A program made the position numbers and the translations under genes. Below the pieces are notes generated by a model. That model saw only the letters and a list, made by a program, of their open reading frames with translations. It did no database searches and was not told the DNA's origin. Positions 799 through 22,034 of a stretch of 24,467 nucleotides of DNA are shown piece by piece (positions within the stretch are counted from its first letter, which is position 1; each line of letters starts with the position of its first letter). Source of the DNA: Chrysochromulina tobinii (Eukaryota; Haptophyta; Prymnesiales; Chrysochromulinaceae); NCBI GenBank assembly GCA_001275005.1, contig JWZX01002035.1:1-24467 (forward strand). Reading direction: 5' to 3'.

Positions 799-2902
799 AT
801 GCTGTCGTACCTGCTCACGTCGCAGCTCTTCCTGTTTGCGATGCCGGCGGCGTCGGCGTCGTTGGGCACGTACCTGTTCTTCTCGTCGAACAACATCATC
901 GAGAACCCCGCCGTCGGCTTCCAAATTGTGGCGCAATGCACTGGCACGGCGCCGACCTTTGTCAACGCCAATCCGTTCATCGCAGGTGGCACGTTCGGCA
1001 GCGTCAACTGGCTCGATGGCTGGTCGTTCTTCAACCTGCCCAACCGCCCGGGCTTTGTCAGTGGCAGCTTCACCTGCCCCGAGGCGGCGTTCGTGCTCGT
1101 GACGCTCAACGCCCAGCAGTATGTGGACACGACGTACCGATTCCGCTACAACGGCCTGCGAATCGATCAGGTGACTGTGAACGGCGTGCCGCCCGGGGGT
1201 GTGACCACCGGAGGAACCCTCGTCACCTTCCGCGGCTTTGGTTTCGATGCGGGTCCTATCGCCTTCTGCCGCTTCGGCAGCTCGCGTGAGGTGGTGGTGC
1301 CGGTGCTGCAGGTGAGCAGGGAGCGGCTCCTCTGCGCCACGCCTGCATGCAAGTGCTCACCACGGCGCCATCGCCATTTCCCCACAGGTGAGCAGGGAGA
1401 GGCTCCTCTGCGCCACGCCGCCCGTCGGTCTGAGTGGCGACGTGCATCTGCTGCTCTCGAGCGACGACGCTGTGTACATCGACACCGGCCTCGACTATAC
1501 GTCCTACCTGCAGCCGACCATCTTTTCTGGCATCTCGCCAGAGGCGGGGCCCAAGCGCGGGGGGACACGTGTCACGCTCACGGGCAACGGCTTGGCTGCG
1601 TTTGTGTCGGAGTTGCAGCCCCTCTCTCAACAAGAGATGACACAGGTGATTCCGTTGATTGCCCTTGATTATCCTCGATTTGCCCTTTATCTGGATGGGA
1701 TTTGGATTGATCTGGATGGGATCTGGATTGACCGAGCTCCCCTCGATGCCGCAGATCGCGCGCTGCTTGTGGGGTGGCGGCTTCACTTCCACCCTGACTA
1801 TTGCAGGAAACCTTCGCAACAGAGGCAGCTGGCTGAGCCCACAAGCGCTGCGCGTGGAGGTGGTCGATGCCGGCAGCCTCGACTCGAACCTGACGCACCA
1901 GTCCCAGCACCCGCCCGCGCCCGCCTCGTGGCGCTGTGGCTTTGCGACCTACGGCACCGGCGACGGCTGCGACTGCGCGTGCGGAGCTCTTGATCCCGAC
2001 TGCGACGACACCAGCACCGGCAACCTCGGCGCTCTACTCGGCGCTTGGAATTGCATGCCGGGGCAAGTGTGCGTCGCCCCGGGCGTGTGCTCGGGCGACG
2101 TCGCACGCGTGCAGCTGCGCGGCCTCGGCCTCGCGGCAGTGCGAACCAGCTCAGGCTTGTCGGCGCCGAGCCTCTCTCAGACGCCCGCCGAGTCGATTGC
2201 GGCGTCCATCCCCTCGATCACCTCGATTGTCGCCGCCGACCCGAATGATGGCGATTCGGTCGCGTCGGTGGGCGACACTCTGACCATCCACTTTGATGGC
2301 GTGACCAATTACGCCGCCGGTGCGCTGCGCGGCAACCGCTCGTTTGTGGACGACATCTTCCGCTTCTCGACGGCGCTCGGGAACGACTACACGGGCGAGT
2401 GGGTCGCCTCCTCCATGGTGGACGCCAGCCAGAGCCTCGCGAGCGAGCGTCTGACGAGCATGGAGGATGATCTGGTCGCCAAGGGTGCCAACCTGCCGCC
2501 CACGCCACGCCCAATCGTCGATTGCGCCGGCGTCGTGGTGGGCGAGCTGACTGTCGGCGTCAAGGTGATCACGGCAATCGCCACCATGGGCAAGTCGGCG
2601 CACTCGGACCAACTCTTCGTCGACGTGACGGAACTCAAGCTCAAGAAAGCACCGCCCGCCGCGCGACATGGCGTGCGGCTGCTCGTCGACATGCTCGGCG
2701 TGGCCGAGCTCGAGGAGACGACTCAGAAGGAGACCACGCACGGCGAAGGCCTCTACCCATTCCCCTTCTCCAAGTCCTTCACACTCGCGCCACTCTCGAA
2801 GCTCGCCGTGAAGCTCGCGACGGCGCTCGAGGCGGCCGATGAGGAGGAGAGCGAGATGCAGCTCGTGGTCAAGACCATTTTCCGAAGCGGCAGCGCCTCG
2901 AC
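799..2902 (+). CDS. Exons 1-3 of the giant gene: signal peptide, IPT repeats 1-2, Cys-rich module
   Basis: Exon 1 encodes the signal peptide and the first IPT repeat (VPPGGVTTGGTLVTFRGFGF, then CRFG). Exon 2 begins at 1388 and carries the second IPT start (ISPEAGPKRGGTRVTLTGNG). Exon 3 (1755-2902) completes it and holds a compact Cys-rich module around 1927-2096 with CDCACGALDPDCD followed by further Cys pairs. I have seen CDCGCG...DPDC-type modules described in algal and bacterial surface proteins but know no assigned function. A segment at about 2215-2400 with ADPNDGDSVASVGDTLTIHF looks like a beta-sandwich repeat, and the rest of exon 3 is unassigned. Confidence 0.7.
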
Positions 2903-5900
2903 GTACGGCGTCTGCCACATGACGTGCTCTGATGACCTCTGATGACCTCTGATGACCTCTGATGACCTCTGATGACCTCTGATTGCCTCCCTCATCAGGT
3001 ATGGCATCTGCCACGTGTCGCTCAGGGCACTGCTCGTGGCCGGGCAGGACCTCTCATCCATGGCGCCGCGCCCCGTGCTCTCCCCCAACGGCAAGGAGAC
3101 CCTTGGGACGCTGAGCGTCTCGGTGGTCGCTCTCGCCGCGCTTCGCACACTCAATGAGAGCTCTGGCGGCGGCGCGCCGGGCTCGGTGAGCCTCAAGCTG
3201 TCCGTGCATGAGGTGTTGCTCGTGCGCCCGCCCAAGCCCATCGCGCCGTTGGTCATCCACGTGGACTTGCTCGGCGTCGTGTCGAGCACCTCGGCCGCGC
3301 TCACCCCCAAGGCGGGCGAGGCCGTTCCGGCCAATTTCGACGCCTTGTTTGCCCTCGAGCCCGGCACGGCGCCACGTGAGGCCGCCATCAAGGCATTCCA
3401 ACGGCCGCCCACGTCCACTGCACGGCAGGGCATCAGAGCCGTGCGTAAATTCATCCAGGAGAAGCTGATGCAAGGTTCGATGAAATACTATGGAGCGCGC
3501 GTGTGCATCCTCGGGCATGCTCAGTTGGGCAAGATGGTACGTTGATTGCCACGGATTGCCACTGATTGCCACGGATTGCCACGGATTGCCACGGATTGCC
3601 ACTGATTGACTGTCGGGCACGCTCAGTCAGGCAAGACAGTACGCGTACGCCCAGCATGCATGTGCTCAACACGGCGCCCAAGATGCGCGCCCACCACGGC
3701 GCCCAGTCTGCGCGCTCATCACGGCGCCTTCCCTCGCTCACTTCCCCACAGGTGCTCACCAAGGCTCTCAAGCAGCTCGAGCAGCACATGCGCGACCTCT
3801 CGTACTCGCTGTCTGGTCACATCAGCGTCTCGTCCGCGCTCATCGGCGAGGCGGACTCGCAAGGGGTCCTCACCATGTGGGACCTGTCTGGTGGAAAGGA
3901 CTATGGGTCCGTGCTACAGCCGTACCTGTGCGACGGCTCGGTCTACCTGCTCGTCGTGCCCGCGCTCGATGTATCCATCCTGAAGACGATGTACGAGCTC
4001 TATGTCGGCCGCTGGCTCAACGCATTGCGCCTGGGTGCCCCGAACACGACCGTCATCCCCGTCATGACCAAGGGCGAAGATCTGCTGATGTCCGCGGAGC
4101 GGCGCGACCGTTCAAGTGCGGTGCTCGAGGCCGCATGCGCCCCGCAGGTCGAGTGGTTCAAGTCGCGCCTCGAGCAGTTCCAGGACTCCGTGCCGGAGCA
4201 CATGCCCAAGCTCAAGATCCGGATCGATCTCTTTTCGTGCGTGAGCTCGTCAGTTGGAGGCGAAGCCTCCGTCGAGGTGCGCACTGATGACGCCTGATGA
4301 CGCCTGATGACGCCTGATGACGCCTGATGACGCCTGATGACGCCTGATGACTTCAAGTCCAATGTCCTCGCTTCCCCACAGGTGCGCGCCATCGCCGACC
4401 ACTCGCATGACGGGCGTCGCTGGATGATGCCCTCGAGGCTGCCCGATACGGCGCCTGAGGGCTCACGCGACCTGTGGAATCACCTGAGCGCACGGCCGGG
4501 CTACGAGGTGCGATCTCCTCACGTTGGTCTTCTCACGTTGTGTCAAGCCGGCGGCGTGGCGGCTCCAGCGGTGGCGGTGGGCCCCACGTATGCGGTGTGC
4601 CTCTTGCCGCCCGGTCGGCAGGGGAGCGCTCTTGTGGAATTCTCCGTCAATGGGCAGGTGGGTGATGAAACCTGATCGAGTGACGAAACCTCATTGAGCG
4701 ATGAAACCTGATCGAGTGACGAAACCTCATGCGCCCGCAGACCCATGATGATCCCTGAGGGCCTCTGATGACCGCTGATGTCCCCTCCCATCAGGACTTC
4801 TACTCTCCGCGAGAGCTTCTCTTCTGATGACCTCTGATGACCGCTGATGACCGCTGATGACCCCTCCCATCAGGACTTCTACTCTCCGCGAGAGCTTCTC
4901 TTCTTCGACGGTTCGAACTTGACGAACGCGACCGAGGCTTACCTGCCGCCCGTCCTCACTATCCTCCTCCTAAGCGCCTCCGACGCCACCGAACAGCTCA
5001 GGCAGGTCATCTCAGCGGCGCTCGGGCTTTCGTTTTCTGCCGGAGATCAACTGACGGATGCCCTGGGCGCGCCGACGACCATGGCCGACGACGAGGTGCG
5101 CAGGCTTGTGGGCCTCGCTCATGCATGCGTGCATGCATGCGCTCGCGACGGCTCGCGCGCGCCCAGCGCATGCATGCGCTCATGACTGCGCTCCCGCACA
5201 TGCATGCGCTCACCACGGCGTCTCACCCTTCCCCACAGGTGCGCGAGCTCTTGATCTCGCAAGGCGTGCTCGAGTGCAGCTCGAGGACGACGCGCGTGCT
5301 CACGACCAGGACGACGCGCGATGAGCTCTTCTTGGAAGTGCGCGCGGCTCTGATGAGCCCTGATGATGAGCCCTGATGATGAGCCCTGATGAGCCCTCCC
5401 TTGATGAGCCCTCCGTGATGAGCCCAGATGAGCTCTGATGAGCCCTGATGAGGTGATCGCCGCTGAGTACCACGGTAGCCGAGTGCACTTGCATTCTGCT
5501 GAGTACCCCCCTCATCACACGTCGCAGGCGCTGGTGCCCTTCCCGACGCACGTGCCCAACATGACGCTCGAGCTCATGCCCACGTGGGACCATCCCGAGG
5601 ACGACGGTTTCGTCCTCCTCGCTTCCACAGCGATCGGGCCCTACCGGCCGTGGCTGCGTGCCGTGTTGAGTGCCAATCGGACCACGTCGCTGCGGGCGAT
5701 ATTCAACGGCAGCTACTTCTACTTCCGCTACTATGAGCAGGTGCTCGCCTCGAATGACCTCTGATGACCTCGAATGACCTCTGATGACCTCTAATTACCT
5801 CTACTTCCGCTACTATGAGCAGGTGCTGCACACGTTCTGGCCTCGCGCCGGTCCGGCACTGCGCGGCGATGAGCCGTGTTGCACCCCAAGCACACCCGCC

Positions 5901-8900
5901 GCCGCCGCTGCTGCCGAGGACCGTGCCGTCCCGGGCACCGCCTCGGAGGCGGCGAACGCGAGCGTGGCAGTGACCGGCTTCGGCTTCGACGTCTTCGGCG
6001 CGTCAACGCTCGCGACGACGCGTTGCAAGTTCGGCACCGTCATCACCCAAGTGATCTCGATCGAGCTGAGCGGCATCGTGCTGCCCGGAGCGCCGTCCGC
6101 GCCGCCCCGAGCGCCCGAGCCCCCTCCCTCCTCGGCTGATGACGGCGCCTCATCAGCGGGTTCGTCAACGGCGGCAACTGCCGGTACGAGCCATGCATGC
6201 ATGCACCGACAAGGCGCGCTCTCGATGTGCTCATCCCCCCCTACGCTACCTCGAACCCTAATTAGGTACGAGCATGCATGCATTTGGCACTCTCGACGTC
6301 TTCCTACAGGTCACGAGCGGAGAAGGCAGCAACAGTGCTACCGGTAGCAGCAGTGCCGACAGCAGCGGCGGCGGAGGCGGCGGAGGCGGCGGAGGAGGCG
6401 GAGGCGGCGGAGGCGATGGAGGCGTTGCGAGCTGGGGTGGGAGCGGCGCAGGCACGCTTGTACGCTGCAGTGCTCCAGATTTCGATCTCGTCGCTCCAGA
6501 TGTCGATCTCGTGGGCGTGGGTGGCACGGCGGAGGTTGAGGTGACAATTGCCGTCTCGGAGTACCCTTTGAGCTTTGCGAGCCCTCTGATTGCCCTCTGA
6601 GTGCCCTCTGAGTGCCCTCTGAGTGCCCTCTGAGTGCCCTCTGACTTCCCTCTGATACTGATTGCCTTCTGATTGCCTTCTGAGTGCCCGCTGAGTGCCC
6701 TCTGTTGGCACAGGTGACCATCGCCCTCAATAGCGAGCACTTCCTCTCCCAGCATGCATGCACACGCTCACTGCGGCGCCCATCCTTCCACAGGTGACCA
6801 TCGCCCTCAATGGCGAGCACCTCCTCTCCGCCCGCCCCCCCGCCATCTACCGGTACAACCAGCAGTCCGTCCTCTCCATCTTCCCCACAAGAGGACCGGT
6901 AGGGGGCGGCACGCTCGTCACTGTCCGGGGGTACGGGCTCGTCAACGAACCTACGTTCGCCCCTGGGGTCTCCGACTTCAGCCTCGCCCTCAACGACCAC
7001 CACTACCTCAGACCACTTAGTGGGAGTGGCTTCACGTACGTTGCCTAGCTCGAGACCTCTCTGATTGCATCTGATTGCATCTGATTGCATCTGATTGCAT
7101 CTGATTGCCTCCGATGGCCACTAATTGCGTACGAATTGCGTGCCTCATTAGGTACTACGAGGACCCTCACGTCTTCGGCATCTTGCCCACCGGAGGCCCC
7201 AAGCGTGGCGGCACGCTCGTCACGGTGAGTGTGCTCGGAGTGCACGCCCTGATTGCATCCCTCATCACTGCTTCTCGTCACGGTGATTGTGCACGGAGTG
7301 CACGCCCTGATTGCATCCCTCATCACTGCTTCTCGTCACGGTGATTGTGCACGGAGTGCACGCTCTGATTGGCTGCTCGGGCACGGCTTCCACAGGCCCC
7401 TTGATTGCCCTTCTCCTCATCCCATCAACTCTGAGCGCCCATGGTTGCCTAATATGGCAGGTGCTCGGTCGCGGCTTCCATGGCCTCGGGGCCGACGTGA
7501 GCGTCGCGCGTTGCCTCTTCGGCGAGCAGACCTCCTACGGTCGGGTGATCTCGATCTCGCCAGATGGCACCTCGCTCACATGCCTCGCGCCCACCCCGTC
7601 GCCCTTGGAGTTGGGCTGCGTCATGCCGCCGCCGCCCTTCCCGCCGCCGCCGCCGCCCTCGGCGCCGCCGCCCTCACAGCCCCCCTCGGCGCCGCCGTTG
7701 CCCCCCTCAATGCCACCCTACCAGCCGCCGCTCAATATGACCAATACGACGCTCGGGCTCAATATGACCAACGCGACCAATACCACGGTGTGTGCGCTGA
7801 TCGCCACCGAGAGCCGCTGATGACCACTGATGACCACTGATGACCATTCATTGCCACTGATTGTGTGCGCTGATAGCCGCTGATTGCCATCGAGAGCCGC
7901 TGATGACCACTGATTGCCACTGAGTGTCCCTGGACGCTGCTTCTCGTGGCCTCATATGACCTCTGATCACATCGCTCATCAGGCCTTCAACATGACGAAC
8001 GCGACTAATTACAGCATCATCGAGATCATCACCGTTTCAGCGCCTCCAACGCCACTCCCTGTAGCCGTCGAGGACGCCCATGCGCCCGCCCACTGCGCCG
8101 GCTCTCTCCTCACGCTGCGCATCGCACTCGATGGTCAGGTGATTACCTGATTGCAACTACATGATTGCAATCACCTGATGCAATTACCCGATGCAGTGAC
8201 CTGACATGCGCTCGATGAACAGGTGATTGCAGCTGATGGCAACTGATTACATGTGAGTGATGCTGATTGCTCTCCGCACGTTCCATCTCACCCCATCTCG
8301 CCCCATCTCACCCCATCTCGCCCCATCTCACCGCATCTCGTTCCATCTCGCTCGCCAGATTCGTATCAACTCGTACGGCGATCGCCTCCCGCCGCCGCTG
8401 AACGAGAGCACCCTCGACCTCTCTGACGAAATCGACGAAACCCTCGTCGCCAACGGCGCCAACGCCACCGACACGGCGCTCCTGCTGAACTTGACCAACG
8501 GGACGAATACTACGTCCCCCCCGCCCATCGGCATGCCCCCCCCTTCCTCGCCTCCACCGCCGCCCTCGATCGACGCGCCGCCCTCGATCGACGCTCCCTG
8601 CTTCTTCGGCACCTGCCGCGAGTTCCTTTATTACCTCGGGCCGGCGCTCTCCTCAATCTCGCCCTCGGGAGGTCCCGTCCGGGGGGGGTTTACCGTCACG
8701 GCGCTCGGCCGACGGTTGGATGGGATGCGCCTCAATGCCTCCATTGCGAGGTGCGTCACCCCTGATGGACCCTTGATAACCCCTTGGTCGCCCCCCTTGA
8801 TGACCTCCTCGATGACCTCTAATTGCCTGACGGTCACCCCTTGAGTGCAGATGACCCCCTTGATGACCCCTAATTGCCTCATGGTGATCCCCTTGATGAC

Positions 8901-11900
8901 CCCTAATTGCCTCATGGTGATCCCCTTGATGACCCCTAATTGCCTCATGGCCTCCCCCTTGAGTGCAGATGCGCCTTCGGCCGCCTTCATGTGCGCGTGA
9001 ACTCGAGCGCCGACGACGGGGCGCTCAACTGCACCACGCCGCCGCAGCCGATGGCACACGCGAGATTCGCAATCTCGCTCAACGGGCGCGACTTCACACC
9101 AGCGAACGGCGTGAACGCCCACGTCGGCGGCGTGAACGCGCGCGATCGCGAGTTCAGCAGCGCGATGGGCGGCGTGGGCGGCGCCGTCGTGGGCGGCGTG
9201 GGCGGCGCCGTCGTGGGCGAAGGGGGCGCGGCCGGCCTTGCCGAGTGCCGATTCCTACCCGTCGACGCGCCGTCGCGGGCGTGCGAGGAGTATGACGAAG
9301 CTCGGCTTCGGCCCACCACGCTCGCCCGGTGCCGCTCGAGAGCGGCGGTGGTCTTTCGGGCAGCTGCGGCGGCCTTGGCGGCGAGCGCGGGGGCTGTGGA
9401 AACGCCTGTGGGGTCGGCTGTGGAATCGGCTGTGGGGTCGAAGTACCGAGGGGGGATGGGCGGCGGCATGGGCGCCGACCTGAGCGGCGGTGATTACGAC
9501 GAGACGGGCGCCGACTTGAGCGGCGGTAACGAGACAGTCGCCGTGTCGGGCGCGGCGGCGGACCGGCTGGGCAGCGGTTACACCGACACGATCATCTGTC
9601 TGCTCACTACGGAAAGTCTCCCACAGAATGCGAGCGCCGTGCGTGTGCAGCTCGCCCTCAATGGAGAAGACTATCTCAACCCGATCTCGCCGGTGTGCCT
9701 CTGATGGCCTCTGAGTGCCTCTGATGGCCTCTGATGGCCTCTGATGGCCTCTACTGGCCCCTGATGACCTCTGAGCGCGTCTGAGTGCCACTGTGTGCCT
9801 CTGAGTGCCGCTGTGTGCTGAGTGCAGGTGCGGATCTCCATCTACCCAAGCCTCCAAGTCCATTCAGTCACGCCGCCCGCCGGCACGAGCCACACGCTCC
9901 TCCTAGTGCAAGGCGTCGGCTTCTCCGGCCTGCTGCATGCAACCCCTCGGTGCATCTTCACCACGGCGCGTGGCGGCAGGTTTCGTCAGACGAGCGCCGC
10001 CACGCGGCTGAGCGATACGCAGTTGCGATGCCACTCGCCGCGGGACGTGTACGGACTCGTGCCGCCGTCGTGGGCAAATGGCACGAGCGACAGCCATGGC
10101 GTCGCCCACGACGGCGCGTCCGCCCACGACGGCGCGTCCGCCCACCACGGCGTCGCTGGTGGCGGCGGAGACGGCGGTGGCGGCGGGCTGCTCTACGTAC
10201 GGATTGGGATTACCATCAACGGTGTTGACGAGACTCGAGCTACCGGTGAGATCGCACCGACGCTGCCCTGGCAATTGCGCCCGCCGCCGCCGCCGCCGCC
10301 GCCACCTCCCGAGCCGTCGCCGTCGCCTGATGACGACGGTAATTCGACCGAGACGACGACGACCACCCCCCGCATGCCGCCATCCGCTGTGCCGCCGTCG
10401 CCACCGGAGCCACCGGAGACAGACGCGCAGCAGCTGCTTCGCCTCGCCGCCCGTCTCGCCGCAGAGTCGTCGACGGAACTCAATGCGAGCAGCGCCGATG
10501 CATTCGTCATCTTCCCGCTGCCAGCGCTCTCGACCGTTTCGCCGACCGGGGCCTTCCTAAACGGTGGCGTCCCCTTGACCATCTTAGGCAGGGGCTTCGT
10601 TATTCTTCGCGAGGTGCGCGCCGTCGCGGGCAGCGCCGTGTTGGGCGGTCAGTGCCGCTTCGGCGGCCCGTCGGGCGTGCGCGTGCCCGGTACGGCGCTC
10701 GACGACGGCGCGTTTGCATGCGCGTCGCCCGCATGGGGCGCGCGTGCTCCTGGGCGCGTGTCGATCGAGATTTCCGTCTCCGCTCCGCTCGGCGCCGAAT
10801 ACGCCGACTGGGTAGGGGGGCGACGAGACCCTATCCTCTTCACACTTGCCCGCCCGTTCACACTCTCCTCTGTCCTACCAACCGGTGGGCCTGTGTACGG
10901 GGGGACGTGCCTCTACCTGCGCGGCGACGGCTTCGAGGGCTATGCGCGCACCACGCCGTCGGCCTCCCTGTGCAAGTTCGGACCGTTTGAAGGCCATGCG
11001 TTCGAGGGCTACCCGTAAGTTCTACACGGAGCCCTCTGAGAGACCAACTGATGACCTCCGATGACCGCTGATGATCTCTGATGACCTCTGATGACCTCTG
11101 ATGACCGCTGATGACCACTGATGACCCCTGGTGACCTCCTCTCCATCTGCAGCCATGCGCTCAACGGCACCGTTCAAGCGACGCACTCCAGCGCCACCCT
11201 CGTTCTCTGCTTCGCTGCTCGTCCCCCCGCTGTCGGTCTCTTGCCGTCAAGCGTCGCCCTACGACTCTCACTCAACGGCATCGAGTTCGCTCCCGGGGCG
11301 CACGCAGATTCTCGGGAGATGCCCTTCTATCAGTACGCGGATGAGGTCGACATCACGTACGACGACGTCAAGTACTCGTTCCGCATGACACCCAAGGCGC
11401 ATGACACGATGGTCCTCAAGATCCGAGCACAGTGGATCGAGGTGCGCTACCGCGAGCAGGCCGACGGCTCCATGTACGCGGCCTACGGCGTTGAGTCGCA
11501 CCAGGTCTTTGCCAAGGAGGAGGCCCTCGGCCTGCGCTTGGTGCTCGATGGCGTGGCCGCACTCCTCCCGACCCTGTATGACCGGCACTCGGACTTCACC
11601 GGCAAGCTCATAGGTGATGGCGGCGCCAGCGTCAAGGAGGCCGAGGCGATGAAGTTGATCATCACACTCAACGCGACCGAGAGCGGCGTGATCAAGCACG
11701 AGGACGACGTGATCAAGCACGAGAAGCCCGCGAGCAACAACATCAACCAGGGCGACCTGCTCGTCTCCTTCACGCTCGCGGACACGTCCCGCGTCAAGAA
11801 GATCGGCGCGTTCAACGGGACCCTCGAGTACGCGAGTGCCGGCGCCGCTGGTGGGGCGGTGGTGCAGCGGGCGCGCACCACCTCCGACTTGCAGACTCGG

Positions 11901-14125
11901 CTCGTCGCGCGGCGCGAGGCGATGCTCGAGGAGCTCACCCAAGGCGCCGTGCCGGCACGCCGGGTCGCTGCGCCCGCGCTCGAGACGACGCTCGCCGACC
12001 GCGCCTCGAGATCGTGGGAGATTGTGCAGGTGCAGGCGGCGACGGCCGCACGTGCGGCGGCGCGCGAGCACCCTGAGCGCGTTAAGTACGAGGCGGCGGC
12101 GGAGGCGCTCGCGGCCCGGGAGGCGGAGATGACGGTGCTTCGCACCCTGCCGATCGAAGGGGCACTCGCATTTGGCAATTGATACGCTCGGTAAGCGCGT
12201 GTACGTGCTGCATTCGGGTCTGCTCCGACGCTACCGGTTTGCAGACGCCCCCGGCGCCAGGATTGGTGGCGGCCCCGTGACCACGCAGCCCGAGGAGGCG
12301 GCCGACGCTCTCGCGAACACCGTATGGCTCGAGGGCATACCGGTGGGCGCGCAGTCGGACAGCCCCTTTCTGCATCGGCCGACGGCGCGGCTGTACTGGA
12401 CGGCGCTCGCGCCAGGCGGCGGCTGTAAGATCGAGCGCAGCTTCCTCGACGGGCGCGGGTGCGAGGTGGTGCTGTCCTCACTGCTGCGTGGTTCACGTGC
12501 TGTTGGTGCCGTCGTGAGCGCCGAAGGTCTGGTGCATGCCGCGTACGTGTCCGTTAGGCAGCCTGGCAATGCGTCGCTGCTCATGGTCGCCGAAGAGAAG
12601 TCGCACGCGACCGACGCCAACCCCCTCCGTGTCTCCGTGCTCACCATCCGGCGGGGCATCGCGCCCTCCGCGCTGATGACCTTCGGGCCTCATCTCTTCT
12701 ACAGCGTCACCGCCTCCCGAGCCATTTACCGGTGCGGGCTGGATGGCTCTGAGTGCATCCTGATCGTGCGAGGAGACGTGGGTATGGCATCAGGAGCGGA
12801 GGTAAATGGCGTCCTATACTCAGTCTCCAAGCTGTCCGCGGGCAACCAGGTAGTGTGCCTGATGGCCTCTGATTGGCCCCTGATTACCTCTAAGTGCCAC
12901 TGATTGCCTCTGATTGGCCCCCGATTACCTCTAGATGCCCCTGCTTGCCTCTAATTGCCCATGTTTGGCCTCTAATTGCCCATGATTGGCCTCTAACTGC
13001 CCAGGCGAACCAATTCGCAACTGCCAAGGTTGGGGGCATGCCGCCTCTGATCATGTGGCTTGAGTCGAACGCCAAGGGTGGTTACAACGCTGACGCGCCG
13101 CGCGAGGCGACCTCCGCATTGCTCGCCGTGGCCACCAACAATGAGCCGCTCCAAGGTCTCATCTCATTGCACCTAAATGATTGCATTTGATTTCCTCTGA
13201 TTGGCTCTGGGAACATCCAAGGGCTCATCACGCGCTGCGCTCCAAATGGCATCCCTCCCCTCAGTATGCCAGGGCTCACCACGACGCCTCCTCGGCTTCC
13301 CCACAGGTCTCATCACGCGCTTCTCAAAGGGCAACTTGGCGACGCACGCGGCGGCAGCGCGCACGCTCTGGCACCTCGCCGGCAACTGCACCGAGGGAGA
13401 GGCGATAGCAGCGGCCAGTGGGATGCAGCCTCTGTGCTCGATGCTCTCATCAGAGGACATGCACGCGCAGGTGTACTGATGACCGCGCGCTGATGACCTC
13501 TGATGACCTCTGATGACCTGTGTACATGCTCTCATCGGAGGACGTGCATGTGCAGGTGTGGTGCTGATAAAAACCTCTGATGACCGCTGATGATCGCTGA
13601 TGGCCTCTGATGACCTCTGGTGGCCTCGAATTGCATCCCTCATCAGGTTAAGGCCCGCGCGACCTCTGCTCTCTCCGAGCTCGCGCGCGACAACCCGGCC
13701 AACCAGAGCGCCGCCCAGGCTGGGAGCATTGCATACGTGGCGCTACGCCAAGGTACGTGCATGACCCGCGAATCACGAGGATGGCCTCTGTGCACCCGCC
13801 TTGCCTGCAAAGTGCTCACCACAGCGCACCCCTTCGTGTCTCGAAGGCGACAGGGCCGAGTCGGCGAAGAAAGCCGCCGCCTCGGCGCATTGGCTCCTCA
13901 CAAGGTTCGTCAAACCCTCATGATCTGATGCGTCTGATGGCCTCTGATGCCCTCTGATGGCCTCGCATTAACCAGATTGCCTCCCTCATCATTCATTGGA
14001 TTGCATCGCTCATCAGGTTGGTCACGCCTGTCGTGGGCAGTCAGATCCGCTTCGTGGGAGGCATCGACCTGTTCTACATCTCCGCCCTCTACATATACTT
14101 ATACGTGAGTGCAAACACCCATTGA
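799..14125 (+). CDS. Giant multi-exon IPT/TIG-repeat protein with embedded Roc-like GTPase, YWTD-like segment and C-terminal armadillo repeats
   Basis: I model 25 exons: 799-1311, 1388-1645, 1755-2902, 2999-3536, 3752-4276, 4382-4657, 4874-5095, 5239-5337, 5528-5740, 5823-6183, 6266-6540, 6794-7035, 7152-7224, 7461-7787, 7983-8138, 8359-8750, 8969-9692, 9828-11014, 11153-12029, 12160-12849, 13005-13155, 13307-13470, 13647-13752, 13847-13904, 14017-14125. All 24 introns are GT-AG, every phase joins, and the total of 9684 nt encodes about 3227 aa. The start is chosen at 799 because it begins a typical signal peptide (MLSYLLTSQLFLFAMPAASA). IPT/TIG repeats occur near residues 125, 215, 1300, 1500, 1560, 1838, 2120, 2347 and 2459, and there are many Asn-X-Ser/Thr sequons. 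IPT arrays are typical of secreted or surface adhesion and receptor proteins, so a surface role is inferred. No transmembrane segment is evident. Exon borders come from reading-frame and domain continuity, not from transcripts, so individual borders may be off and the locus could be more than one gene. Confidence 0.75.
1312..1387 (+). other. Intron 1 (type II core with exon-border copy)
   Basis: 76-nt GT-AG intron, phase 0. Its first 32 nt (1312-1343) match the first 32 nt of the next exon (1388-1419) at 31/32 positions. The rest is the TGCATGCA...GCTCACCACGGCG...TTTCCCCACAG module. Confidence 0.8.
1646..1754 (+). other. Intron 2
   Basis: 109-nt GT-AG intron, phase 0, required to change frame into exon 3. 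It contains a 21-nt tandem pair at 1690-1710 and 1711-1731 differing at one base, and GATTG/GATTA motifs related to the array monomers of other introns. Confidence 0.65.
2903..2998 (+). other. Intron 3 (TGATGACC array, exon-border copy)
   Basis: 96-nt GT-AG intron, phase 2. The first 22 nt are a diverged copy (18/22) of the start of exon 4 at 2999. A tandem array of about five CTGATGACCT units follows, then CTCCCTCATCAG. Confidence 0.75.
2999..4657 (+). CDS. Exons 4-6 of the giant gene: degenerate Roc-type GTPase domain
   Basis: Exon 4 ends in a P-loop-like string, VCILGHAQLGKM, where the Walker A Ser/Thr after GK is Met. Exon 5 supplies MWDLSGGKDYGSVLQPYLCD, matching the Roc WDxxGQ/switch II region, then VYLLVVPA and RWLNALRLGAPNTTVIPV, and MTKGEDL in the position of the NKxD guanine-specificity motif (Asn replaced by Thr). 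The order and spacing fit the Ras-of-complex domain of ROCO proteins. Exon 6 (from 4382) reads as the end of that domain, then returns to an IPT-like ending (LVEFSVNGQ). The substitutions suggest weak or lost GTP binding. A GTPase inside a signal-peptide protein is topologically odd. Confidence 0.6.
3537..3751 (+). other. Intron 4 (compound: ATTGCCACGG array plus second P-loop copy plus type II core)
   Basis: 215-nt GT-AG intron, phase 0. After donor GTACGT come about five 10-nt ATTGCC(AC)(GG/TG) units. Then 3613-3643 is a diverged copy (26/31) of 3511-3541, the exon 4 end with its donor, and three CACGGCGCC units plus CACTTCCCCACAG follow. Confidence 0.7.
4277..4381 (+). other. Intron 5 (CTGATGACGC array)
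   Basis: 105-nt GT-AG intron, phase 0. Donor GTGCGC repeats the first six nt of exon 6 (GTGCGC at 4382). About seven tandem CTGATGACGC units follow and the intron ends GCTTCCCCACAG. Confidence 0.75.
4658..4873 (+). other. Intron 6 (perfect 44-nt copy of the acceptor plus exon start)
   Basis: 216-nt GT-AG intron, phase 0. 4782-4825 is identical to 4861-4904, covering the acceptor CCCCTCCCATCAG and the first 31 nt of exon 7. The inner copy runs straight into TGATGACC units and a stop, so only the second acceptor keeps the frame. The 5' part holds GATCGAGTGACGAAACC-type repeats. Confidence 0.8.
4874..9692 (+). CDS. Exons 7-17 of the giant gene: central IPT repeats with Pro-rich, Gly-rich and N-glycosylation-rich linkers
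   Basis: IPT cores are visible in exon 10 (ASVAVTGFGFDVFG, CKFG), exon 12 (IFPTRGPVGGGTLVTVRGYG), exons 13-14 (ILPTGGPKRGGTLVT then VLGRGFHG, CLFG) and exons 16-17 (ISPSGGPVRGGFTVTALGRR then RCAFG). Exons 7-9 hold a less conserved stretch. Linkers are low complexity: about 16 consecutive Gly near 6366-6413, a PPPPFPPPPPPSAPPP segment near 7620-7730 followed by repeated NMTN/NTT sequons, and GGVGGAVV repeats near 9166-9225. Most IPT repeats are split by introns close to the GGxxVT strand or just after the closing strand. Confidence 0.7.
5096..5238 (+). other. Intron 7 (type II, several GCATGCATGCGCTCA units)
   Basis: 143-nt GT-AG intron, phase 0. It starts GTGCGC like exon 8 (5239). It contains at least three GCATGCATGCGCTC units and ends CTCACCACGGCG...CCTTCCCCACAG. 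Confidence 0.75.
5338..5527 (+). other. Intron 8 (GATGAGCCCT array)
   Basis: 190-nt GT-AG intron, phase 0. The 5' half is a GATGAGCCCT array with variants. The 3' half contains two GCTGAGTAC segments and ends CCCCCCTCATCACACGTCGC then AG. Confidence 0.65.
5741..5822 (+). other. Intron 9 (flanked by a perfect 27-nt direct repeat spanning both splice sites)
   Basis: 82-nt GT-AG intron, phase 0. 5719-5745 and 5801-5827 are identical, each holding the upstream exon end, CAG and GTGCT. The intron is therefore one full period of an 82-nt tandem duplication with a GAATGACCTCTGATGACC core. Confidence 0.85.
6184..6265 (+). other. Intron 10 (GTACGAGC-ATGCATGCAT at both borders)
   Basis: 82-nt GT-AG intron, phase 1. 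The first 19 nt match the first 18 nt of exon 11 (6266) apart from one inserted C. It ends CCCTAATTAG. A second AG at 6308-6309 is out of phase. Confidence 0.6.
6541..6793 (+). other. Intron 11 (double intron with three copies of the exon 12 start)
   Basis: 253-nt GT-AG intron, phase 0. Decayed copy 1 begins at 6541 (GTGACAATTGCCGTC). A TCTGAGTGCC array and acceptor CACAG then lead to copy 2 at 6714-6749, which matches the true exon start 6794-6829 at 34/36. The spacer between copies 2 and 3 is a short type II core (GCATGCATGCACACGCTCAC...CACAG). Confidence 0.8.
7036..7151 (+). other. Intron 12 (CTGATTGCAT array)
   Basis: 116-nt GT-AG intron, phase 2, donor GTACGT. It has about five CTGATTGCAT units and ends GCCTCATTAG. 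The next exon begins GTAC, repeating the first four intron bases. Confidence 0.75.
7225..7460 (+). other. Intron 13 (58-nt tandem repeat that regenerates the donor)
   Basis: 236-nt GT-AG intron, phase 0. Units at 7225-7282, 7283-7340 and a partial unit from 7341 each end CTCGTCACG before GTGA, copying the exon 13 end and donor. Further on, about 7373-7396 is a diverged copy of the start of exon 14 (7461). Confidence 0.75.
7788..7982 (+). other. Intron 14 (TGATGACCAC array)
   Basis: 195-nt GT-AG intron, phase 0. TGATGACCAC-type units occur twice, separated by a repeated GAGAGCCGCTGATGACCACT segment. It ends ATCGCTCATCAG. The flanking exons both encode NMTNATN, so the coding border itself looks duplicated. 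Confidence 0.65.
8139..8358 (+). other. Intron 15 (CCCCATCTCGCCCCATCTCA array)
   Basis: 220-nt GT-AG intron, phase 0. The 5' part has CCTGAT(T)GCAA units. About 8281-8355 is a CCCCATCTC(G/A) array acting as a pyrimidine-rich 3' end, with acceptor CTCGCCAG. Confidence 0.65.
8751..8968 (+). other. Intron 16 (33-nt tandem repeat, duplicated acceptor)
   Basis: 218-nt GT-AG intron, phase 2. It contains about 2.8 copies of a 33-nt unit from 8860. The 17-nt acceptor plus exon start CCCCTTGAGTGCAGATG occurs exactly at 8837-8853 and again at 8955-8971, the true junction. Confidence 0.75.
9693..9827 (+). other. Intron 17 (CTGATGGCCT array)
   Basis: 135-nt GT-AG intron, phase 0. It is a CTGATGGCCT array, then CTGAGTGCC units, ending GTGTGCTGAGTGCAG. 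The terminal GAGTGCAG matches that of intron 16. Confidence 0.7.
9828..11014 (+). CDS. Exon 18 of the giant gene: three further IPT repeats
   Basis: This is the longest exon (1187 nt). It encodes IPT-like starts LQVHSVTPPAGTSHTLLLVQ, LSTVSPTGAFLNGGVPLTIL and LSSVLPTGGPVYGGTCLYLR, with CIF, CRFGGP and CKFGPF at the positions where the other repeats have the conserved Cys-x-Phe-Gly. A His-Asp-Gly-Ala-Ser repeat (about 10100-10160), a Gly run and a Pro-rich linker (10276-10330) separate the first two. It ends phase 2 at a consensus donor GTAAGT. Confidence 0.75.
11015..11152 (+). other. Intron 18 (CTGATGACCT array)
   Basis: 138-nt GT-AG intron, phase 2, consensus donor GTAAGT. It has about eight CTGATGACC(T/G) units and ends CCTCTCCATCTGCAG. 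No exon-border copy is evident. Confidence 0.75.
11153..12029 (+). CDS. Exon 19 of the giant gene: end of IPT array and charged/coiled-coil-like stretch
   Basis: The exon begins by completing the preceding IPT repeat (ALRLSLNGIEF), then enters a region without a recognised domain containing VDITYDDVKYSFRM, IRAQWIEVRYRE and LGLRLVLDGV. It then becomes Ala/Glu/Arg-rich and helical in appearance. The frame stays open to 12182 (continuing with RVKYEAAAEALAAREAEM). The next domain is in another frame, so the 3' border at 12029 is a model only: a GT-AG intron 12030-12159 restores the frame, or a single-base indel near 12171 would. Confidence 0.55.
12030..12159 (+). other. Putative intron 19 (ordinary sequence)
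   Basis: A 130-nt GT-AG interval (CAG|GTGCAG to CGAAG|GGG), phase 0, is proposed because exons 19 and 20 are in different frames. It has no array and no repeat and reads as coding in the upstream frame, so a one-base indel is an equal alternative. Confidence 0.35.
12160..12849 (+). CDS. Exon 20 of the giant gene: YWTD/LDLR-B-like beta-propeller segment
   Basis: The exon encodes LAIDTLGKRVYVL, ARLYWTALAPGGGCKIERSF followed by LDGRGCEVVLSS, and HLFYSVTASRAIYRCGLDGS followed by ECILIV. The alternation of (I/L)Y(W/R/S) strands with LDG(S/R)xC turns resembles LDL-receptor class B (YWTD) or NHL-type propeller blades. Only about three to four blades are visible, fewer than the usual six. This supports an extracellular binding role but is weaker than the IPT assignment. 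Confidence 0.5.
12850..13004 (+). other. Intron 20 (CTGATTGGCC / CTAATTGCCC array)
   Basis: 155-nt GT-AG intron, phase 0. Repeated CTCTGATTGGCC, CTCTAATTGCCCATG and related units fill it, ending CTAACTGCCCAG. Confidence 0.7.
13005..14125 (+). CDS. Exons 21-25 of the giant gene: armadillo-like repeats and C terminus
   Basis: Five short exons read continuously in frame: ATAKVGGMPPLIMWLE and REATSALLAVATNNEPLQG (exon 21), HAAAARTLWHLAGNCTEGEA then AASGMQPLCSML (exon 22), VKARATSALSELARDNPANQ and AAQAGSIAYVAL (exon 23), GDRAESAKKAAASAHWLLTR (exon 24). The pattern of small-residue helices followed by GG/GxxxPL is the armadillo repeat, normally a cytosolic or nuclear fold. Exon 25 ends with a hydrophobic aromatic stretch (IDLFYISALYIYLY) and then either continues seven codons to TGA at 14123-14125 or is spliced at GTGAGT (14105). 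I see no further exon in the repeat DNA that follows. Confidence 0.6.
13156..13306 (+). other. Intron 21 (contains a copy of the fused exon junction)
   Basis: 151-nt GT-AG intron, phase 1. Inside it CCAAGGGCTCATCACGCGCT (13218-13237) resembles the joined end of exon 21 and start of exon 22. A further decayed copy, GGGCTCACCACGACGCC, precedes the type II ending CTTCCCCACAG. Confidence 0.7.
13471..13646 (+). other. Intron 22 (copy of exon 22 end plus array)
   Basis: 176-nt GT-AG intron, phase 0. 13526-13559 repeats 13441-13474 (exon 22 end, CAG and GTGT) at 30/34, all differences being transitions. TGATGACCTC units lie on both sides. It ends CCCTCATCAG. Confidence 0.75.
13753..13846 (+). other. 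Intron 23 (decayed type II)
   Basis: 94-nt GT-AG intron, phase 1, donor GTACGT. It contains AGTGCTCACCACAGCGCACC, a diverged form of the type II core, and ends GTGTCTCGAAG. Confidence 0.6.
13905..14016 (+). other. Intron 24 (CTGATGGCCT units)
   Basis: 112-nt GT-AG intron, phase 2. The first 12 nt resemble the first 12 of exon 25 (9/12). It has CTGATGGCCT-type units, and two TCCCTCATC/TCGCTCATC segments precede the final CAG. Confidence 0.65.
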
Positions 14126-14935: not shown

Positions 14936-14995
14936 AAAAGCGGTGCTAAACAACCTCGCCCGTCGGGACTGAACAGCCCCAGACCGACGGGTGCC

Positions 14996-15130
14996 TCTTT
15001 GCCGACTTTGACAACTTTGCCGACTTTGCCGACTTTGCCGACTTTGCCACCGACGGGTGCCTCTTTGCCGACTTTGACAACTTTGCCGACTTTGCCGACT
15101 TTGCCGACTTTGCCGACTTTGCCGACTTTG
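14996..15130. repeat. GACTTTGCC 9-bp minisatellite
   Basis: A 9-bp unit GACTTTGCC is repeated in two blocks, each introduced by CGACGGGTGCCTCTTTGCC. The period is a multiple of three, so it reads Leu-Pro-Thr repeatedly in the frame that leads into the next gene. Confidence 0.8.
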
Positions 15131-20357: not shown

Positions 20358-22034
20358 ATGCTGCTTCTCCTAGGCGCGCTGCAAACATCCGCGTGGCTCG
20401 TGGGCGGCATGGCCCCCGTGCCGGCCACCCGTGGCATGACTCGCAGCAGCAGCAGCCTGCGCATGGCAGTGGAGGCGGAGTACGACCTGGTGATCGTCGG
20501 CTGCGGCGGTGCGCTTCCGCAGCATGAATCTTGCCCTTGAGCCCTGGACTGTTGCTCCCCATTTCACCCCTCTGCCAAAGATCTTGACGCGCGCGTGCCT
20601 TGAATTCGCTTTGCTGCTACGCCTACCTCCGCAGTCGGAGGCCACGGTGCGGCGCTGCACGCCGTGTCCAAGGGCCTCAAGGTCGCCGTCGTCGCAGGCG
20701 GTGACGTCGGAGGCACCTGCGTCAACCGCGGCTGCGTGCCGTCGAAGGCTCTGCTCGCCGCATCGGGCCGCGTGCGCGAGATCGGCGATGAGAAGCACCT
20801 GGCTGACATGGGCATCACGACGGGCGGCGTCTCGTATGACCGCGCGAAGGTGGCGGCGCACGCCAACAACCTGGCGTCCAAGGTTGCCAAGAACCTCGGC
20901 GGCTCGCTCACCGCGCTCGGCATCAAGACGTACATGGAGAAGGGCGAGCTCGTTGGCCCGACGGAGGTGAAGCTCGTGGGCACCAGCAACACGATCAAGG
21001 CGAAGAGCGTCATCCTCGCGACGGGCTCGGTGCCCTTCGTCCCGCCGGGCGTGGTGCAGGATGGCAAGACTGTCTTCACATCGGACGAGGCGCTCAAGCT
21101 CGAGTGGGTGCCCGACTACCTCGCGATCGTGGGCTCGGGGTACATCGGTCTCGAGTTTTCGGACGTGTACACCGCGCTCGGCTCGGAGGTCACCTTCGTT
21201 GAGGCGCTCCCGCGCATCATGGCCGGCTTTGACAAGCAGATCGCTCAGCTCGCTGAGCGCATCCTGATCAAGCCGCGCAACATCGACTACCGCACCAACG
21301 TGTTCGCCTCCAAGGTGACGCCGGGCATCCCGGGCGTGAAGCCGGTGACGATCGAGATGATCGACGCGACTACGAAGGAGCACGTCGAGACCCTCGAGGT
21401 CGATGCATGCATGATCTGCACGGGCCGTGCTCCCTACTCGGAGGGCCTCGGCCTCGCCGCCGCCAACGTGCAAGTCAAGCGCGGTTTCGTCCAGGTGAAC
21501 GAGAAGATGCAGGCCCTCGACGTGAACGGCGCCGTCATTCCGGGCCTCTACGCTATCGGCGACCTCAACGGCAAGATGATGCTCGCTCACGCCGCCTCGG
21601 CGCAGGGCATCTCGGCGGTCGAGAACATCTGCGGCCACGAGCACATTCTCAACCACGACGCCATCCCCGCCGCGTGCTTCACGCACCCCGAGATCGCCAT
21701 GGTCGGTCCGACCGAGGAGCAGGCGCGCGAGCGTGCGAAGGCCGAGGGCTACGAGGTCGGCGTCTCGCAGGGCAACTTCAAGGCCAACTCCAAGGCGCTC
21801 GCCGAGGGCGAGAGCGAAGGCATCGCCAAGGTCATATTCCGCAAGGACACGTACGAGGTGCTCGGCGTGCACATCGTGGGCCTCCACGCGGCGGACCTTA
21901 TCCAGGAGTGCTCGAACGCGATCAATGCGGGCTCGACGCTCGAGGATCTCGCTATGATGGTCCACACGCACCCGACGCTCTGCGAGGTGCTCGACGAGGC
22001 CTTCAAGGCTGGCCTGGGCCGCGCCGCGCATTAA
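20358..22034 (+). CDS. DLD: Dihydrolipoyl dehydrogenase, plastid type (E3 of pyruvate dehydrogenase), two exons
   Basis: Exons 20358-20508 and 20635-22034 give 516 aa. The flavoprotein oxidises dihydrolipoamide to lipoamide with NAD+. The FAD loop is completed only across the splice (VGCG|VGGHGAA, residues 47-57). The redox disulfide is Cys79/Cys84 in [13 protein letters not shown], the NAD-binding loop is [15 protein letters not shown], and the catalytic His496/Glu501 pair lies in HTHPTLCE. The [11 protein letters not shown] string and the overall pattern are those of plastidial/cyanobacterial LPD rather than the mitochondrial enzyme. The first about 36 residues have a hydrophobic start ([15 protein letters not shown]) and a Ser/Arg/Met-rich continuation, consistent with signal plus transit peptide for a secondary plastid, with SAW where an ASAF-like cleavage motif is expected. 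Targeting is inferred. Confidence 0.92.
20509..20634 (+). other. Intron of the lipoamide dehydrogenase gene
   Basis: 126-nt GT-AG intron (GGCG|GTGCGC to CCTCCGCAG|TCGG), phase 1. Unlike the introns of the giant gene it has no 10-bp array, no type II core and no exon-border copy. Splicing restores the GxGxxG-type FAD-binding loop, which strongly supports both borders. Confidence 0.88.

Follow-up and report, generated by a model that had tools for sequence, protein, structure and literature searches.

Where the bulk of introns comes from is a long-standing question, and many of the introner families described so far resemble cut-and-paste DNA elements. The gene considered here raises that question in a particular form, as its predicted introns carry direct repeats of neighbouring exon sequence and the process that left these copies behind has to be found among element insertion, local duplication and the repair of broken DNA. 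We describe two dispersed families of element that lie between the copies, and about half of the elements examined lie between two copies of a 14–44-letter stretch of the host gene. The duplicated stretch probably lends such elements a splice site and so turns them into removable introns. The best explanation, to which we assign a probability of roughly 0.78, is that elements ending in AG were inserted into exons with a target duplication of 14–44 nt, by target-primed reverse transcription or a closely related process. The insertion scar is long, variable and readable at many sites, and offers a countable record of intron birth in a single assembly.

The host gene and its direct repeats

The window, by which we mean the whole stretch of 24,467 nt that was analysed, is all of contig C968, and the assembly examined comprises 53.15 Mb in 2,253 contigs. 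The host gene is on the + strand, as are the duplication and element sites of this gene described below, and starts at position 799; an IPT/TIG domain was found in one of three scanned pieces of it (9822–11018). Between 799 and 14016 there are 17 non-simple direct-repeat segments with a score of at least 14 and a spacing of 60–150 nt, which is far above chance, as ten dinucleotide shuffles gave 0 or 1 such segments each. Eight repeat pairs had been reported in a first-pass annotation, and all are exact in position and identity (31/32, 18/22, 26/31, 44/44, 27/27, 34/36, 17/17 and 30/34). The accompanying proposal that the simplest introns are exactly one repeat period holds for the predicted introns 1312–1387, 2903–2998 and 5741–5822, that is 3 of 21 in a hand-adjusted model in which two typed borders (7224–7461 and 11018–11152) have no starting GT and could never pass; at the other listed pairs the repeat lies within a longer compound intron. 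The exact register of intron and repeat was seen in 0 of 420 pairs of a swapped control.

The first and second copies of the duplicated target are referred to as T1 and T2, and the elements between them belong to families A and B, defined in the next section. At the first of these sites T1 (1312–1343, 32 nt) begins the predicted intron 1312–1387 in register, a family B element of 44 nt ending CCCCACAG follows (1344–1387), and the downstream exon begins with T2 (1388–1419, 31/32). The same order is seen at 2903–3020, where T1 (2903–2924, 22 nt) begins the predicted intron 2903–2998, a decamer array of family A ending CTGATTGCCTCCCTCATCAG occupies 2925–2998 and T2 (2999–3020, 18/22) is the exon start, and again at 6714–6829, where T1 (6714–6749, 36 nt) stands immediately after an array and is followed by a family B element of 44 nt (6750–6793) and by T2 (6794–6829, 34/36) as exon start.

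A second arrangement places AG/GT inside the duplication or at its right end; here the family A array supplies at most one splice site. At 5719–5827, T1 (5719–5745, 27 nt) ends in GAGCAG/GTGCT with the predicted donor inside the duplication, the array insert (5746–5800) has no splice sites of its own, and T2 (5801–5827, 27/27) holds the predicted acceptor, again GAGCAG/GTGCT, the predicted intron being 5741–5822. At 13441–13559 an array insert (13475–13525) lies between T1 (13441–13474) and T2 (13526–13559, 30/34), and the predicted donor, GCGCAG/GTGT, is likewise within the duplication; L038, L042, C45 and C1720 provide further examples. The duplication at 3511–3643 (T1 3511–3541, array insert 3542–3612, T2 3613–3643; 26/31) has the same structure on contig C1720 and extends across the predicted donor of a compound intron, 3537–3751, the 3′ part of which is by its sequence a family B-like element (3652–3751) for which no long duplication of its own was detected (score 9).

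The 44-nt pair 4782–4825 and 4861–4904 (44/44) lies over the acceptor of intron 4658–4873, whose junction 4657/4874 is that of protein P0122, discussed below. The pair is part of a 79-nt tandem duplication, 4746–4904, with 92% matches, and looks like a local duplication of exon sequence. Plain tandem duplication of an AGGT-containing exon segment was one of the two origins proposed in the first-pass annotation. It is an accepted mechanism, named together with break repair among the sources of introns in the parts of PMC3443670 compared, where the AGGT of both copies gives both splice sites and the intron is the duplicated exon. The proposal thus stands for some cases, such as 4746–4904, where the intron consists of duplicated local sequence, and a similar picture is seen in stretches of C33 and in one of C1720. 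It fails for the others, including 2903 and two C1720 sites, as the copies there mostly enclose a foreign element, of family A or B sequence, and contig C1067 lacks the 2903 insert entirely. Tandem duplication is therefore rejected as a general cause, and as an account of the whole phenomenon we regard it as improbable. The 17/17 pair at 8837 and 8955 is weak evidence of any kind, as it is located at both ends of an array of 33-nt units (8837–8971).

Two dispersed families of element

Family B has the form GCATGCAWGYGCTCACCACGGCGCC...CCCCACAG. Its inserts are 39–79 nt long, contain GCATGCAWGTGCTCACCACGGCGCC and end CCCCACAG, the 3′ end being fixed at an AG that abuts the target GT and the 5′ end being variable. 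The core of the family has 1,956 genome-wide matches with no more than two mismatches, and the reversed pattern has 0. In one copy (L055) the variable 5′ stretch had no second match in the assembly and so is not traceable to a source intron. In nine aligned B inserts inspected by eye, the GCATGC end and the CCCCACAG end did not form terminal inverted repeats.

Family A consists of arrays of 10–11-nt CTGATGACCT-type units, which often end in TGATTGCCTCCCTCATCAG or CTGATTGCCTCCCTCATCAG. Its end pattern has 2,914 genome-wide matches at the same two-mismatch limit, and again 0 when reversed, and all 76 occurrences of the array motif in the window gene are on the coding strand, with 0 on the opposite strand. 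The element at 2927–3001 has at least 40 dispersed matches among the 40 scored of 785 candidates, 39 of them at 90–100% identity and one at 86%, and 33 of the 40 listed matches extend to within a few bases of the terminal CAG. The elements contain repeated CTGAT/CTAAT, which we take to resemble a branch-point sequence. Searches against plasmids and phages gave no match.

There are then, as for introners, many similar elements at unrelated positions of one genome, a statement that concerns the elements and does not make every copy an intron. The process had initially been described as concentrated in one gene; this was wrong, as both the element families and the duplications occur genome-wide, and confinement to a single gene is rejected.

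Duplications at elements chosen independently

The association of elements with duplications was assessed on sets of elements picked independently of the duplications, the exon start after each being compared with the 230 nt upstream. The first sets were fixed-pattern 3′ ends of both families in the window, in twenty 10-kb stretches and in six further stretches, these last from five contigs selected for holding the array. Nine of 16 B elements scored at least 12, against 0 of 151 swapped pairs at 10 or more (maximum 9), and 14 of 29 A elements scored at least 10, against 2 of 280 swapped pairs, one of these scoring 45. With the window's own sites removed the fractions were 7/12 for B and 12/23 for A. 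The second sets were 20 B and 20 A exact pattern matches, chosen by hand from the first 100 listed places so as to cover different contigs. Here 14 of the 20 B copies scored at least 13 (swapped pairs, 13/380 at 12 or more, maximum 19), and 4 of the 10 A copies analysed, out of the 20 picked, scored at least 15 (swapped pairs, 0/90 at 10 or more). In eight of these 14 B copies the duplication starts precisely at the AG of the element, and in a ninth (L065) it does so by eye once one gap is allowed. The duplication was below these thresholds in 7/16 and 6/20 B copies and in 15/29 and 6/10 A copies, perhaps because these are old or nested or follow another arrangement.

A further control with the antisense motif did not separate the two classes, in-register GT..AG being present in 56 of 291 antisense and 61 of 281 sense cases, and the motif also matches the complement of CATCAG ends; for these reasons we rely on the swap controls. 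The in-register scan started from 903 raw pairs, and 842 without the motif or without in-register GT..AG were removed; six of the 61 left were merged as overlapping to give 55 listed pairs, several of which (e.g. L033, L034, L035) are array-internal or coding repeats and were excluded as insertions.

Length of the duplication, the insert and the intron

At 32 sites (37 rows minus 5 set aside as other repeats), 18 typed A and 14 typed B, the duplication measures 14–44 nt with medians of 22 and 27.5 nt, in a scan whose threshold score of at least 13 meant that shorter duplications could not be reported. The sites are partly dependent, some A rows on C33 overlapping or being local duplications, and the 3′ end of one row typed B (L076) places it in A. 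The scan required T1 to start with GT; the preceding base is G in 30 of the 32 sites, against a background of 27%, and AG precedes the GT in 14.

These lengths bear directly on transposition. MITE-like DNA transposons, moving by cut and paste, are well placed as a source of introners in general, since 59.2% of 130 scorable introner families have target duplications, inverted repeats or both in the parts of PMC9860276 compared. DNA-transposon introners would, however, leave target duplications of 3–9 bp, and the duplications here are broad in length rather than fixed and, at all 32 sites, longer; nor were inverted repeats seen in the nine B inserts. Cut-and-paste transposition was rejected on these two grounds, and we hold it to be very improbable. 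Long and variable duplications argue against a standard transposase and against reverse splicing of intron RNA, which predicts no target duplication and is rejected because duplications are present.

For family B the lengths of duplication and insert are anti-correlated (r −0.78, n = 16, permutation p = 5e-5; 13 B rows together with L038-6140, L040-7434 and C1720), a relationship that is partly built in, as the insert is the intron minus the duplication and an underestimated duplication lengthens the insert equally. The intron length consequently varies little, around 79.8 nt with a standard deviation of 7.4, where independence would give 13.5. A narrow range is as expected if only spliceable combinations survive, and its persistence despite a variable scar suggests what a newborn intron of this family requires. 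The shortest introns at the scanned sites are of 61–66 nt.

Related contigs and related proteins

If insertion makes introns at formerly intron-free sites, related sequences should include sites with and without the element, and both states were found. Contig C1067, which is 94–97% identical to the window around the 2903 site, has the 22-mer once and no array, and this empty site has three mismatches to T1 and one to T2. In the opposite direction, C1720 has two introns where the window has neither: a family B insert with a 34-nt duplication (33/34) at the empty window site 3906–3939, and an array insert with an 18-nt duplication (17/18) at 4167–4184. At 3906 the uninterrupted window sequence is the same as T2 of C1720, and the sole change sits in T1.

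A deletion between two copies could in principle also produce the state of C1067, but the proteins P0121 (88% identical) and P0124 (59%) read unbroken through the 2903 site, which argues against deletion as its source. Polarity is assigned in this way for 2903 only, at the protein level and from these two protein predictions; for most sites the direction of change is one that we infer. Taken together, the dispersed families, the empty site on C1067 and the introns present only on C1720 indicate that most cases are insertions with long and variable target-site duplications. This upholds the other origin proposed in the first-pass annotation, an introner-like insertion with an unusually long target-site duplication, as dispersed families lie between the copies and a related empty site has a single copy. 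The intron-bearing parts of L038 and L040 had no match among the scored candidates (39 of 1,419 and 39 of 1,173, respectively) and yielded no further empty sites.

An artefact of assembly, with repeats collapsed or stitched together as in metagenome-like data, has in its favour the division of 53 Mb into 2,253 contigs. We think it extremely improbable, since five of the eight pairs are imperfect, the 5741 intron is also present on C1932 with differences of its own, and P0123, which shares 95% identity with the window protein where the two were compared, runs into the same 2903 intron as the window.

Further traces of the elements are found in these relatives. The C-terminal stretch of P0124 has SAHHGA, which equals one frame of the B core, so that family B may extend to a related gene or species. 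P0121 terminates in LLDC/LLEC repeats, perhaps an array that was read through; from these features both proteins are likely to be genomic predictions. Contig C1932 has 295 extra bases relative to window positions 6952–6953, consisting of an A-type insert with a 17-nt duplication (16/17, within C1932 27801–28220) and further sequence, and the window may have lost these bases by deletion.

Splicing of the introns

The joined exons maintain an open frame across nine introns. Protein P0122, of 384 aa and derived from a 1,187-base contig, matches the joined exons over its first 377 residues, with junctions at 4276/4382, 4657/4874, 5095/5239 and 5337/5528, and its last seven residues equal the 5741–5822 intron read to its first stop codon. 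As the genomic span exceeds the 1,187-base contig, P0122 is very likely a transcript, and the 5741 intron was very likely retained unspliced in that molecule. Support for splicing thus comes from four upstream introns through one transcript-like protein, and at the clean insertion sites splicing is predicted from the sequence.

How the elements may insert

Non-LTR retroelements and their short passengers leave target duplications of variable length and have a fixed 3′ end and a variable 5′ end. Family B shares these features of LINE-type retroposition, and its 3′ end fixed at AG by the target GT, its variable 5′ end, the variable duplication and the lack of visible inverted repeats together point to target-primed reverse transcription. 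The elements differ from such passengers in having no poly(A) tail, and a passenger here would end at the AG of an intron. Selection for exact splicing could mimic an insertion property in producing the AG end that abuts GT. The assembly contains 26 matches to the reverse transcriptase domain RVT_1, 22 of them over the cut-off and many in open frames of more than 1,500 codons; these proteins may be candidate partners of the elements, none being linked to them.

In the mechanism that we propose, an element would end in AG and carry a predicted branch point and 3′ splice site without a 5′ splice site. Its insertion into an exon would duplicate 14–44 nt of the target, the target's own GT would act as the new 5′ splice site, and splicing would take out the element with one copy of the duplication, so that the coding sequence would be restored exactly. 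We take the element itself to derive from an excised intron, the RNA of whose 3′ part would be copied into the exon by target-primed reverse transcription or a closely related process. A more specific form of this idea, to which we would give somewhat less than an even chance, is that half-introns spread as RNA, staggered nicks in exons being the sites at which the 3′ parts of excised introns are reverse-transcribed, and the long duplication becoming the 5′ half of each new intron. If true, introns would arise en masse by retroposition, and the splice site that the element lacks would come from the host exon.

The main rival is the repair of staggered double-strand breaks, in which the fill-in of long overhangs duplicates the target, intron fragments are captured and exact splicers are selected, with no dedicated machinery. 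It accounts for variable duplication lengths, for variable 5′ ends and for the second arrangement, which has no fixed ends, and new Daphnia introns, in which one exon border is directly repeated at the far end of the intron as it is here, have been interpreted in this way in the parts of PMC4202315 compared. The Daphnia border repeats are, however, of 4–12 bp against 14–44 nt here, and those parts present no dispersed insert family. Such repair would leave short border repeats around unrelated filler, whereas the repeats at these sites are longer and the filler is a family, the inserts belonging to two families with thousands of copies and B having one 3′ end. We therefore consider break repair with capture of intron fragments unlikely.

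Comparison with known introners and intron repeats

A close parallel to the elements described here is provided by the introners of Gozashti et al. (2022, PNAS, PMC9860276), similar introns that are dispersed over many positions in aquatic protists. Some introner families rely on the target for one splice site or for both, and a family from Chrysochromulina is among those described. In the parts of that study compared, the target duplications are of 3–9 bp for families described earlier, with 4 bp given for Chrysochromulina and 8 bp for Aureococcus; theirs are short, and those described here are 14–44 nt, variable and associated with no inverted repeats that we could see. Introner elements are also described from Micromonas in the parts of PMC3879977 compared. 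Direct repeats near intron borders were reported by Rogers and Bendich (2025, PMC11782384) for 213 introns, with lengths of 4–30 bp and a mean of 11.4; the parts compared contain no element families or empty sites, and the repeats here are mostly longer, in GT/AG register and swap-controlled. Our search of the literature on introners with long duplications, which covered neither supplements nor most subscription papers, found no duplications this long, and that on haptophyte intron repeats found no description of such element-flanking duplications. A long and variable scar points to a different insertion chemistry, and the insertion route is perhaps one of RNA copying, unlike that of most known intron-making elements.

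The composition of the window

Beyond the host gene, the window encodes a dihydrolipoamide dehydrogenase (20604–22034) with 100% identity to a cluster present on 30 contigs and 78% identity to that of Prymnesium parvum, the best named relative among the matches listed, which makes a haptophyte alga the likely source of the DNA. The host gene is mosaic-like over 1079–12700, where consecutive pieces resemble C2196, C1067, C1720, C1932 and C1452 at about 86–98%, and the borders of these pieces fall within exons, as at 3397–3398, where a C1067-like piece meets a C1720-like one. Two pieces about 20 kb apart on C2196 (2358–24138) are near neighbours in the window, one ending at 1821 and the next starting at 1824. 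Simple local duplications are also present, namely 2.7 copies of a 58-nt unit at 96% (7216–7371), close to a predicted intron of the gene, and an exact 66-nt tandem duplication (14983–15114) among CTTTGCCGA repeats.
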